A stretch of DNA of 36,369 bases from an uncultured Clostridium sp. (lineage in GTDB: Bacteria; Bacillota; Clostridia; Lachnospirales; Lachnospiraceae). The notes under the pieces were generated by a model. It had not been told where the DNA came from. It worked only from the letters and a program-made list of their open reading frames with translations, and did not search any database. The stretch is from the NCBI GenBank assembly GCA_945917985.1, contig CAMEIH010000025.1, forward strand, positions 1 through 36,369, read 5' to 3'. This document shows positions 99 to 15,523 of this stretch, one piece after another (the first letter of the stretch is position 1; each line of letters starts with the position of its first letter). Made by a program: the position numbers and the translations under genes.

Positions 99-443
99 TC
101 AGTCATTACTCTGTGAACCTTCACAGCCGCAGGTTCCCTGACTTGAAAAAGAAATAAAGGGGCGGGAATCCATCCTTGATTCACTGCGCTCTGATCTACA
201 GCCGCAATCCTTATCCCTGTCTCTCCCGTCACGACGGTCACAGTCGTTGTCTCTGTCTCTTCTGTCACGACGGTCACAGTCATTATCTCTGTCTCTTCTG
301 TCTCTGCATCCGCAATCCTTATCCCTGTCCCTGTTTTCTCTGCATCCGCAGTCATCGTTTCTTTCTCTTCTTTCCATGCAGCCACAGCATCCGCTGTTAT
401 TGCCACAACAGCAAAGTAAAAGTAATAAAATCAGACAATTCAT
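99..443 (-). CDS. Cys-rich, Arg/Asp 12-residue-repeat protein
   Basis: A 114-residue low-complexity protein that I cannot assign to a named family. It starts with a short hydrophobic run (about residues 3-13) that merges into a Cys cluster (CCC, then CC and C near 19-22). Five 12-residue units follow at residues 24-83, of the type DRRDRDNDCDRR or ENRDRDKDCGCR, and the tail is Ser/Gly rich with a CGC motif. I count 17 Cys. The start is supported by AAGGAG about 9 nt before the ATG, and a strong terminator follows. Similar small Cys-rich proteins are common in Lachnospiraceae and unassigned. A structural spore-surface or metal-binding role is inference from composition and from a possible mother-cell promoter. 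The reverse frame through the same repeats is also open, so coding rests on the ribosome site, terminator and in-frame repeat. Confidence 0.7.
   Translation of the reverse strand: MNCLILLLLLCCCGNNSGCCGCMERRERNDDCGCRENRDRDKDCGCRDRRDRDNDCDRRDRRDRDNDCDRRDGRDRDKDCGCRSERSESRMDSRPFISFSSQGTCGCEGSQSND
195..374 (-). repeat. Five 36-bp in-frame tandem repeats
   Basis: Five consecutive 36-bp units encode residues 24-83 of the Cys-rich protein. Units 3 and 4 (residues 48-59 and 60-71) are identical at protein level and nearly so in DNA; the outer units have diverged. The 36-bp period preserves the frame, so copy-number slippage would lengthen or shorten the protein by 12 residues. Confidence 0.85.
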
Positions 444-504: not shown

Positions 505-1044
505 TCAATGCTTTCTGTGAAGTATGTTTTGTCTGATATAGGCGAAAGTTTCCTCTTCTCCTTCTTCTGCCAGCATGGTAAGAAGACATTCCAAAAGAGC
601 TTTTGTCTCAGGATGAATCGGTGCATTCTCTTTGCCCTTCAGGTAATAAATGAGAGGATCTTTCTGGGTATAATTGGAACCATTATATGTTTTGCAGGCT
701 GCAATTCTGTCCATCAGCATTTCAACCACATATTTCTCGGGCATTTGGGCCGGAGCCATACCTCCCTTTATTTCCTTTGTACTGTAATCAATCCAATATT
801 CGTAATGATGCTTATTACGCCCCTTGTGATGAAGCCATGCACTGGAATAACCGATTGCCTCTCTTTCGGCATTGTTGGGACTTCTGTTTCCCTGATAATA
901 TTTTGCACCCACCATAAATTCTGTTGGGCTGAATTTTGAAAGATCATGCAGCAGGCCCTGTCTGTACAATCCCACTTTAAAGCAACCCTCCATAACAAGT
1001 CTTTTATGATGAGTGATGGTCTTAAAGTGTTTCCATGCTTTCAT
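505..1044 (-). CDS. DUF5662 family protein
   Basis: A 179-residue soluble protein matching the clostridial DUF5662 family as I remember it. An N-terminal HHK stretch is followed by LLHDLSKFSPTEF, which resembles an HD-type metal-binding segment, then WLHHKGRNKHHYEYW, which is rich in His. Together they suggest a metal-dependent hydrolase-like fold, but no reaction is known to me. The start codon overlaps the end of the GH13-like gene by 23 nt and has no strong ribosome site, so translation is probably coupled to that gene. The downstream neighbour, 61 bp away, is the Cys-rich protein, which seems to have its own promoter. Confidence 0.8.
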   Translation of the reverse strand: MKAWKHFKTITHHKRLVMEGCFKVGLYRQGLLHDLSKFSPTEFMVGAKYYQGNRSPNNAEREAIGYSSAWLHHKGRNKHHYEYWIDYSTKEIKGGMAPAQMPEKYVVEMLMDRIAACKTYNGSNYTQKDPLIYYLKGKENAPIHPETKALLECLLTMLAEEGEEETFAYIRQNILHRKH

Positions 1045-2935
1045 TCTTTTTTACTGTCTTTCTTTTTCCTTTTCTCACCTTTTCCCGGTATCCCTCATCT
1101 TTTTCAGAAATGAATACCACCACGCTTCTTCCTTCCGCAAAAGCTTTATTCTCATCTGCAGCAATCGATTCTTTATTTTCTATTGAAGTAGAGAATATCT
1201 TCTGCCATTTCATTCCTTTGGGGAGCTTCGGAAGCGCAAGGGCATGTGATTGCCAGTGCATATTATAGGCAATGTACAGGGAAGCATCTTCCCTGTCTTT
1301 TACATATTTACCGCAGAGCATAATTCCAACCATTCTGCTGATATAGCTTGTGTCAGGTCTCCAGGCTTCCATTCCATGATAAGAAATATCCGGGAATCCA
1401 CAGCCTAAAGAATCCATGATTTTCAATTGTTCTCCAAGATGAAGAATCGGATGACTTTTTCTGAAACCGATAATCTTTCGGGTGAAATTGAATATTTCAT
1501 CAGAAAATTTATTTGTTTTCCATTTTATATTCCAGGTATCATTATCCTGGCAATAGGCATTATTATTTCCATACCTGGTATTTGCCAGTTCGTCCCCACT
1601 GAATAAGTAGGGTACACCCTGAGACAGGAATAAGAAAGATAGCGCATTCTTTATCTGCCTGCACCGCAGCTCCATAATGGATTTCTTACGGCTTTCGCCT
1701 TCTGTGCCACAATTCCAGGTAAAATTATTGTCAGTTCCATCCCTGTTAGCTTCACCGTTTTCTTCATTATGCTTCCGCTCATAAGCAACGCAATCGAACA
1801 AAGAAAAACCATCATAATCAGCCAAAGAATTGATAACGGCATGATCTGCAGGATTATTCCTCTGGTAGAAAATAACCTGACTTATCAGATTTTCATCTCC
1901 TTTCAGGAAACGACGCATATCATTTCTGAAATTTCCGTTTTCAAAAGCAATATTTTTATATCCGGGCCCCTTATCCTTGTAAAGCTTTTCAACAGGGAAA
2001 TAATCACTTCTGACCTTGGTTTCTTTCAGCAGTGGATCCTTCGCAATTGTCTCAAAAGGAATATTGAACCCGCAAAGTTTTACCCCGTCAATGTGATATT
2101 CAATTACCCAGTATCTCAGAATATCCAAAATATAGGTCTGCTTTAAATCCGGCGGAAAATAAAACTGCATCATAATTTCTATTCCGTTTTTATGCAGCGC
2201 TTTTACCAGCTTCTTAAAGGAGATGGCAGGGTCCTCCGCGCTGTAGGATGCCTTTGGCGCAAAATAAAATCCCTCCTGGTATCCCCAACAGTTGATTCTC
2301 TTTTCACCGTCTTTTTGAATATTGCATTTTTGGGTTGCTTCCTCCATACTGCCTGGCTTTCCTACAGACAGATACATACACTCGTCAAACTCGTAAGCCG
2401 GCATCAATTCTACCGCTGTAATGCCAAGCTCTTTCAGATAGTCGATTTTTTCAATGATTCCTTCAAAAGTTCCTTTATGCTTCACTCCTGAACTTTTGTG
2501 CATCGTAAAAGCTCGAACATTTAAGCCGTAAATGATCGTGTCCTGATAAGGAATCGCGAGCGGAGAATCCCCCTCCCAATCGAATTCATTTTTTTCAAGG
2601 ACACCCCTTGTCTTTCTTTTTTTCTCCCCAAATGCGCCGAAGCTTTCCAGTCCGGAAATCCTTTTTGCATAAGGATCCGTATACACTTCCTCATCCGTAT
2701 AATAATTATATTCTGTAAAAGGAAGTTTTTCTCCCTCTATTCTAATACCATACAAGGTACCTCTTTTTCCCTCTTTTGAAAAAGGAATACGGGTAGTCTT
2801 CCCGGTCTGATCATAAAGGAGTAATCCGCTTTTTTCCGCTGTTTCCGATTCCGTACAAAAATCATAGCCATTATTCAAAGGATAAACGCCCTGTTTTTCC
2901 GGTTTAAAGTAAGTAATCTGTATATTCTGTTCCAT
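1022..2935 (-). CDS. GH13 debranching-enzyme homologue, catalytic motifs lost
   Basis: A 637-residue protein with the full architecture of GlgX/isoamylase-type debranching enzymes: an N-terminal CBM48-like part (residues 1-125, including TDPYAKR), then a GH13 barrel starting near IIYGLNVRAFT (135-144), with GITAVELMPAYEFDE, KHNEENGEANRDG, SQGVPYLFSGDE and GNNNAYCQDND all conserved. The four catalytic regions are degenerate. Region I (normally DVVYNH) reads QFYFPP (257-262). Region II (GFRFD) reads GVKLC, putting Cys288 at the nucleophile. The acid Glu is apparently Asp311. The HD pair reads YD (374-375). It is probably not a working glycosidase and may bind glycogen or act as a regulator; that is inference. 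The ATG at 2935 is chosen over one 18 nt upstream because AGGAGG lies 4 nt before it. Confidence 0.85.
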   Translation of the reverse strand: MEQNIQITYFKPEKQGVYPLNNGYDFCTESETAEKSGLLLYDQTGKTTRIPFSKEGKRGTLYGIRIEGEKLPFTEYNYYTDEEVYTDPYAKRISGLESFGAFGEKKRKTRGVLEKNEFDWEGDSPLAIPYQDTIIYGLNVRAFTMHKSSGVKHKGTFEGIIEKIDYLKELGITAVELMPAYEFDECMYLSVGKPGSMEEATQKCNIQKDGEKRINCWGYQEGFYFAPKASYSAEDPAISFKKLVKALHKNGIEIMMQFYFPPDLKQTYILDILRYWVIEYHIDGVKLCGFNIPFETIAKDPLLKETKVRSDYFPVEKLYKDKGPGYKNIAFENGNFRNDMRRFLKGDENLISQVIFYQRNNPADHAVINSLADYDGFSLFDCVAYERKHNEENGEANRDGTDNNFTWNCGTEGESRKKSIMELRCRQIKNALSFLFLSQGVPYLFSGDELANTRYGNNNAYCQDNDTWNIKWKTNKFSDEIFNFTRKIIGFRKSHPILHLGEQLKIMDSLGCGFPDISYHGMEAWRPDTSYISRMVGIMLCGKYVKDREDASLYIAYNMHWQSHALALPKLPKGMKWQKIFSTSIENKESIAADENKAFAEGRSVVVFISEKDEGYREKVRKGKRKTVKKNESMETL

Positions 2936-2957
2936 GCGTCCTCCTGAAATCATAATT

Positions 2958-3084: not shown

Positions 3085-3426
3085 ATGGGAAAACAAAACA
3101 ATTATGAAACACCGGAAGAAAATGATGAAGAAATGACAGTAACACTTGATCTTGATGACGGAACCAGTGTCACCTGTGCCATTGTTACTATTTTAACTGT
3201 CAGGGATCAGGATTACATTGTACTTCTTCCTCTTGATGAAAACGGAGAAAATCAGGATGGGGAGGTATGGTTCTACCGATATCACGAAGACGAAAATGAT
3301 CCAAATGCCGAGCCGGAGCTTGGCTATATCGATGACGATGAGGAGTATGAAATCGTTGCCGATGCCTTCGATGAATACCTCGACAGCGCTGAGTTCGATG
3401 AGATCGTCAGCACTGATGGACAGTAA
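3085..3426 (+). CDS. DUF1292 domain protein
   Basis: A 113-residue, very acidic cytoplasmic protein of the DUF1292 (YrzB-like) family. Typical features are the N-terminal TVTLDLDDGTSV, the central DYIVLLPLDE, EVWFYRYHED and the acidic EPELGYIDDDEEYE. The family is widespread in Firmicutes and its role is unknown to me. The start is supported by TAAGGAG 6 nt upstream and by its own promoter. The last 20 nt overlap the 3-prime end of the convergent helicase gene, so no separate terminator fits between them. The Asp/Glu-rich tail (about residues 85-113) may be a flexible acidic surface. Confidence 0.9.
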   Translation: MGKQNNYETPEENDEEMTVTLDLDDGTSVTCAIVTILTVRDQDYIVLLPLDENGENQDGEVWFYRYHEDENDPNAEPELGYIDDDEEYEIVADAFDEYLDSAEFDEIVSTDGQ

Positions 3427-14914: not shown

Positions 14915-15523
14915 ATGTGGAGTTATGAGAAACGATTACAATTTCCGGTAAATATCAAAGAGCCTAATGCAAAACTTGCCCAGGTCATCCTGACCCAGTA
15001 CGGCGGACCGGACGGAGAACTGGGTGCCTCTATGCGCTATATTTCCCAGCGTTATTCCATGCCCTATAACGAAGTCGCTGCCGTCCTGACCGACATTGGA
15101 ACGGAAGAACTTGCACATCTCGAGATGGTGTCCACCATCGTACACCAGCTGACACGAAACTTAACTATGGAGGAAATTGAAGAATCCGGTTTTGCCAACT
15201 ATTATGTTGATCATACTGTAGGCATCTGGCCCATGGCGGCAGGTGGCATTCCTTTTTCCAGTACCGAATTCCAGTCAAAGGGCGACGCCATTACCGATCT
15301 CCATGAAGATATGGCTGCAGAGCAGAAAGCCCGCTCCACTTACGACAATATTTTAAGACTTGTCCGTGACTATCCCGATGTCTATGAACCGATCAAATTT
15401 TTGAGAGCCCGTGAAATCGTACATTACCAGAGATTCGGAGAAGCATTAAGAATTGTTCAGGATAAGCTGGATTCCAGAAACTTCTATGCATTCAATCCCG
15501 AGTTTGACAGGTGTAAGGACTAA
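14915..15523 (+). CDS. cotJC: Manganese-catalase-like coat protein CotJC
   Basis: A 202-residue member of the manganese catalase family found in the spore coat, expected to break down hydrogen peroxide or at least to keep the di-manganese four-helix fold. The metal-site pattern is present: GELGASMRYISQRY (Glu of helix 1), TEELAHLEMV (Glu and His of helix 2), HEDMAAEQKARSTY (Glu of helix 3) and AREIVHYQRFGEAL (Glu and His of helix 4). It is shorter than secreted Mn-catalases, as all CotJC are. GGAAGGAGG lies 10 nt upstream of the ATG, three bases after the cotJB stop. A strong hairpin terminator follows 34 bp downstream. Confidence 0.95.
   Translation: MWSYEKRLQFPVNIKEPNAKLAQVILTQYGGPDGELGASMRYISQRYSMPYNEVAAVLTDIGTEELAHLEMVSTIVHQLTRNLTMEEIEESGFANYYVDHTVGIWPMAAGGIPFSSTEFQSKGDAITDLHEDMAAEQKARSTYDNILRLVRDYPDVYEPIKFLRAREIVHYQRFGEALRIVQDKLDSRNFYAFNPEFDRCKD

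Follow-up and report, generated by a model that had tools for sequence, protein, structure and literature searches.

The closest described counterpart of the gene reported here is ISA2, which the available parts of PMC12510319 describe as a GH13_11 paralogue without the nucleophile, known in green plants and algae, that serves in plants as a non-catalytic subunit bound to ISA1. The same parts of that source map four spontaneous missense variants of maize ISA1 without detectable activity to a "border lobe" set apart from the active site, and one of the four variant positions, W578, touches glucan at secondary site 2 (PMC12510319). In bacteria, the available parts of PMC10395257 report two glgX homologues in Blautia obeum. 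We analyzed a 36,369-nucleotide stretch of DNA from an uncultured Clostridium sp. of the Lachnospiraceae (GenBank assembly GCA_945917985.1, contig CAMEIH010000025.1; the window), which carries a gene for a GlgX/isoamylase-like protein that has almost certainly lost catalysis. This protein and its relatives, here named dead GlgX, are compared below with intact GlgX. Features of the gene, placed by alignment, are as follows.

1022..2935, minus strand: catalytically dead GlgX/isoamylase-like gene, 637 amino acids, with an N-terminal CBM48-like beta domain, a barrel and a C-terminal beta domain
2150..2167, minus strand: region I, QFYFPP (residues 257-262) replacing DVVxNH
2090..2149, minus strand: interval between regions I and II, cut to 21 residues versus 65-67 in GlgX (~44 deleted)
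2072..2074, minus strand: Cys288 at the position of the nucleophile Asp
2003..2005, minus strand: Asp311 at the position of the acid/base Glu
1913..1915, minus strand: Arg341, corresponding to border-lobe R504 of maize ISA1
1811..1816, minus strand: Tyr374-Asp375 at the His-Asp (HD) pair, with the third catalytic Asp retained and the His lost
1697..1783, minus strand: conserved loop 385-413 (KHNExNG to WNCG), with N390 and W407 corresponding to maize N561 and W578
1541..1570, minus strand: conserved loop 456-465 (GNNNAYCQDN), with N457 corresponding to maize N628

The catalytic regions were read by alignment with the intact GlgX that this genome also encodes, a 716-amino-acid frame on another contig (C48). 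Region I lacks the DVVFNH of the intact enzyme, GFRFD of region II has become GVKLC (K286 and C288), and AEAWD of region III has become SDYFP (D311); C288, D311 and D375 stand where the Asp-Glu-Asp triad would be. A sequence-only reading of this DNA had proposed loss of the region I motif (given there as DVVYNH), Cys for the nucleophile with Lys for Arg beside it, and Asp for the acid Glu, all of which the alignment bears out. It had also counted the HD pair, read as YD, among the lost sites; Y374-D375 is indeed found there, but only the His is lost and the catalytic D375 is retained in the window. DVVxNH and GFRFD are absent from all 80 orthologues first fetched (41-97% identity), which argues that the catalytic loss did not arise by chance. 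At regions III and IV, residues vary among the orthologues, and in a few an acidic residue or the HD pair survives (e.g., L068, which reads SHDGF).

A larger alignment of 97 dead GlgX and 39 intact GlgX rows gave the same picture. The nucleophile Asp is present in 1 dead row versus all 39 intact rows, while the acid Glu is kept in 26 dead rows and the third catalytic Asp in 17; 53 dead rows retain no triad residue, 44 retain one, and none retains two or more. Sugar-binding residues are depleted as well, the region I His being kept in 0/97 dead rows, the region II Arg in 12/97 and the region IV His in 25/97. Furthermore, two loop deletions, overlooked by the sequence-only reading, are found in all 97 dead rows. 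Regions I and II are separated by 20-21 residues across the dead family versus 65-67 in GlgX, and regions II and III by 24-25 residues versus 37-39 (~14 deleted). Judging from sequence, it is close to certain that catalysis has been lost.

As had been claimed, the frame of the gene is intact and not frameshifted (open at 1022-2953, minus strand); an AGGAGG ribosome-binding site lies ahead of the ATG at 2935, from which the protein is probably 637 amino acids long. Its predicted structure matches GlgX, TreX, ISA1 and ISA2 over almost the whole length, and this model and its matches contain the CBM48-like domain, (beta/alpha)8 barrel and C-terminal beta domain of GH13_11; the GlgX-type fold is predicted to be kept. 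The protein scores 317.2 bits against TIGR02100, below the curated cut-off of 640.9.

A single tree branch with support 100 parts the 97 dead rows from the 39 GlgX rows, E. coli GlgX among them, so one origin suffices for the dead family. This tree was built by a quick method, omitted 11 near-duplicate or closely related orthologues and a second copy of the window locus, and placed the long rows L156, L157 and L158 unsurely. The ratio of nonsynonymous to synonymous substitution rates (dN/dS) is 0.02-0.18 in 15/15 pairs of dead genes and 0.08-0.18 in the seven pairs with dS below 1, the ratios of the other eight (dS above 1) being rough; 3 of 6 GlgX comparison pairs were computable and gave 0.05-0.11. 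These ratios establish, at the sequence level, strong purifying selection on dead GlgX in Lachnospiraceae.

To describe its spread, we used one genome per Lachnospiraceae genus (150 genera, the window's own included and incomplete genomes among them). The family profile matched in 128 genera, of which G063, G107 and G112 were set aside as having intact GlgX only (by score, and for G063 also by place), leaving ~125 carrier genera as defined by profile score; 2 of the 22 genomes without a match were identified by elimination. Motifs were checked in fetched loci, and the 20 divergent loci together with G106, G154 and G189 all lacked catalytic motifs; G189 is the weakest carrier, and the motifs searched for were absent there too. 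Kineothrix alysoides, a species that can be cultured, is among the carriers (L021). Samples of 196 genomes from the order (E <= 1e-100) and 291 from the class (E <= 1e-60) yielded no carrier beyond the Lachnospiraceae, at thresholds that would miss weaker relatives. Matches there came from 2 order-sample and 6 class-sample genomes, with frames of 676-752 amino acids. Spread beyond the family was rejected on the intact motifs of 6 of these 8 matches, which were fetched, and of a second gene of G371; for the others, G625 and G629, frame length was the sole criterion. At the thresholds used, dead GlgX thus appears to be a lineage-specific protein restricted to Lachnospiraceae. The single origin, the breadth of carriage, the low dN/dS and the two loop deletions make selection for a role other than catalysis close to certain, as the sequence-only reading had suggested.

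We propose, with a probability of roughly 0.6, that dead GlgX is a pseudoenzyme of Lachnospiraceae that descends from a debranching enzyme of the GlgX type (GH13_11) and has a glucan-binding, non-catalytic role. Its barrel fold would persist with the catalytic residues, the sugar ligands of the cut site and two active-site loops gone; the retained lobe (i.e., the loops after strands 7 and 8) would bind alpha-glucan (glycogen), and the protein would take part in glycogen handling as a scaffold or as a subunit without catalysis of its own, much as ISA2 does in plants. Border-lobe retention is the main, and a plausible, line of sequence evidence for this role. The four maize border-lobe positions correspond to R341 (97/97 dead rows), N390 (97/97), W407 (96/97) and N457 (97/97) of the window protein; these matches were set by spacing, in the only register that fits a rice ISA1 stretch, so the maize positions are deduced and not read from the maize sequence. 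In addition, the distance from region IV to the GNNN motif is exactly 82 residues in 136/136 rows, dead and GlgX alike, and of all blocks compared, conservation is highest in the two loops belonging to this segment (0.79 and 0.73).

Several observations weigh against this proposal. Intact GlgX keeps the same border-lobe residues (37-39 of 39 rows), so structural (folding) conservation alone could explain them. Border-lobe loops 387-412 and 456-465 have low confidence in the structure model, which does not support a preformed site, and conservation is lowest in the N-terminal domain (0.44), although the domain-by-domain values compare sets of unequal breadth. Because nearly every genus has GlgC (147/150), joint occurrence with glycogen synthesis is no test of a glycogen role, and recurrent neighbors in the 81 loci compared include no recognizable glycogen genes (GlgX lies near in locus L079). 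Glycogen binding or scaffolding, as put forward in the sequence-only reading, nonetheless remains plausible because the border-lobe matches are retained, and the explanation we favor is that dead GlgX binds glucan and acts as a scaffold or regulator. That reading as a whole is partly supported.

At the threshold used, 82 of the 125 carrier genera lack GlgX, so dead GlgX would not be a partner of GlgX only. The best candidate partner is the product of the adjoining gene.

505..1044, minus strand: DUF5662 gene, possible HD-type metal-dependent phosphohydrolase, sharing 23 bases with the end of the dead GlgX gene

In 87 of 108 loci, a set that includes near-duplicates, DUF5662 and dead GlgX are neighbors with the same orientation; 26 genomes are without DUF5662, 6 of these identified by elimination. 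Residues H13, H33, D34 and D112 are invariant in 43 rows and match the H...HD...D metal-ligand pattern of the HD superfamily. The match to the HD-domain helical fold is weak, and a profile search for solved relatives returned none, with one chance-level match; DUF5662 is possibly an HD-type phosphohydrolase. The boldest reading still standing, which we consider unlikely, is that dead GlgX is a glycogen-targeting subunit that brings DUF5662 to glycogen and holds it there, or that obeys a nucleotide signal hydrolyzed by DUF5662. The pair would then form a two-protein glucan-bound phosphatase, or a nucleotide-signal switch on carbon storage, in gut Lachnospiraceae, by convergent isoamylase death as in plant ISA2. 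Laforin-type proteins provide a functional comparison for a glucan-bound phosphatase.

Slightly less probable still is an obligate partnership like that of ISA2 with ISA1, in which dead GlgX would join the cell's own intact GlgX in a hetero-oligomer and tune the activity of that enzyme. The second, intact GlgX that the sequence-only reading had suggested looking for is present on C48, GlgX is commoner in carriers (43/125 versus 3/25 in non-carriers; odds ratio 3.85, p 0.03, not corrected for kinship), and in Lactonifactor both genes lie in one locus. However, the 82 carrier genera without GlgX led us to reject this as a general role, and four genomes of the window's own genus, judged 97-99% complete, also lack GlgX (G014, G018, G020 and G026). 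Regulation of a true debranching enzyme, another earlier suggestion, is possible in this genome, where an intact GlgX exists, but less so across the carriers, most of which lack GlgX.

We also weighed whether dead GlgX could be an active enzyme with an altered mechanism, another residue performing catalysis, which seems more doubtful again. GlgX was found in 46/150 genera and type I pullulanase in 36/150 (both E <= 1e-90), and GDE_C in 27/150; 57 of the 125 carrier genera have none of the three at the thresholds used, and the dead family has new fixed residues such as E395, present in all 97 rows. On the other hand, residues as different as N, K, M, L, S and V, among others, occupy the nucleophile position, which disfavors a substitute nucleophile there, and little is left of the sugar-binding residues and cleft loops. 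Non-carrier genera are not richer in the three debranchers (any of them present in 7/25 versus 68/125 carriers). Known debranchers are thus rarer where dead GlgX is missing, which gives no hint that it substitutes for them, and a role as replacement debrancher was rejected. Finally, a decaying pseudogene or assembly artefact, to which the lost catalytic residues and the stops listed within the match in many genera could point, is next to impossible, because a single stop-free frame reaches profile position 601-640 of 641 in 32/32 loci checked, flagged ones included (the listed stops look like read-through past the natural gene end), dN/dS is low, and a dead GlgX copy 97% identical to the window's exists in another named record.

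The window and related loci hold further features.

3085-3426, plus strand: divergent DUF1292 gene, neighbor of dead GlgX
99-443, minus strand: short Cys/Arg/Asp-rich repetitive frame (CCG and RDRDNDCDRRD repeats) after DUF5662, without a Pfam match
14915-15523, plus strand: Mn-catalase-like protein of 202 amino acids, covering 1-197 of a 284-position Pfam profile and thus shorter than the profile
L139 4489-5163, L140 5059-5700, L145 4759-5487, L148 2209-2865 and L153 4490-5167: TraX-like frames, named by eye

Genes near dead GlgX in the 81 loci encode DUF1292 (60 loci), a UvrD-like helicase (55) and a GltX-like protein (48), the last two labeled by eye. A frame related to the Cys/Arg/Asp-rich one occurs at a similar place in 26/81 loci, and the TraX-like membrane protein frame lies between the dead GlgX and DUF5662 genes in five. 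The site upstream of dead GlgX that had been read as cre-like departs from a 14-position cre consensus at 2 positions and from a looser, 15-position consensus at 1. The looser form was applied to the window site only; scored with the first, 11 of 81 orthologue upstream regions had at most two mismatches versus ~9.1 in simple shuffles. The cre-like control site was dropped in view of this lack of enrichment.

We found no description of a dead GlgX family in print, within the open-licence literature. If our proposal is correct, a pseudoenzyme present in about five-sixths of sampled Lachnospiraceae genera would give plant ISA2 a counterpart in bacteria, and a non-enzymatic job in the handling of stored sugar would be probable across most of a major gut bacterial family. 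The reason for ISA2 retention in plants is still under study, and a bacterial counterpart would make the question testable in bacteria. Homology-based surveys of GlgX may also count the dead protein as a debrancher and overstate debranching capacity: at strict thresholds, GlgX, type I pullulanase and GDE_C are all missing from 75/150 sampled genera, although GlgC is found in 147/150. One of the two Blautia obeum homologues may belong to the dead family.

Compared with GlgX/TreX, dead GlgX shares the domain order, the fold and the loops after strands 7 and 8, whereas the triad, the region I motif, the sugar ligands of the cut site and two loops are lost. GlgD is a relative of GlgC and not of GlgX. 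It offers, in the available parts of PMC10395257, a precedent in the pathway for a regulatory subunit of a catalytic enzyme. Like ISA2, dead GlgX is a GH13_11 paralogue without the nucleophile. A further feature of plant ISA2 is SBS1, a glucan site with two Trp. ISA2 has an extra N-terminal beta-sandwich domain, whereas residues 7-611 of dead GlgX align to ISA2 145-796 with only 6 residues preceding; ISA2 pairs with ISA1, whereas dead GlgX has a catalytic relative in its own genome but in most carrier genera lacks an active partner from its own family. Dead GlgX keeps the border-lobe residues, whereas ISA2 reportedly lacks the site-2 sequence, according to the available parts of PMC12510319. 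Because dead GlgX was seen only in Lachnospiraceae and ISA2 is known in green plants and algae, the two probably arose independently, a view drawn from distribution, ISA2 being outside our tree. ISA2 is the nearest known case, and the resemblance is one of kind and not of membership.
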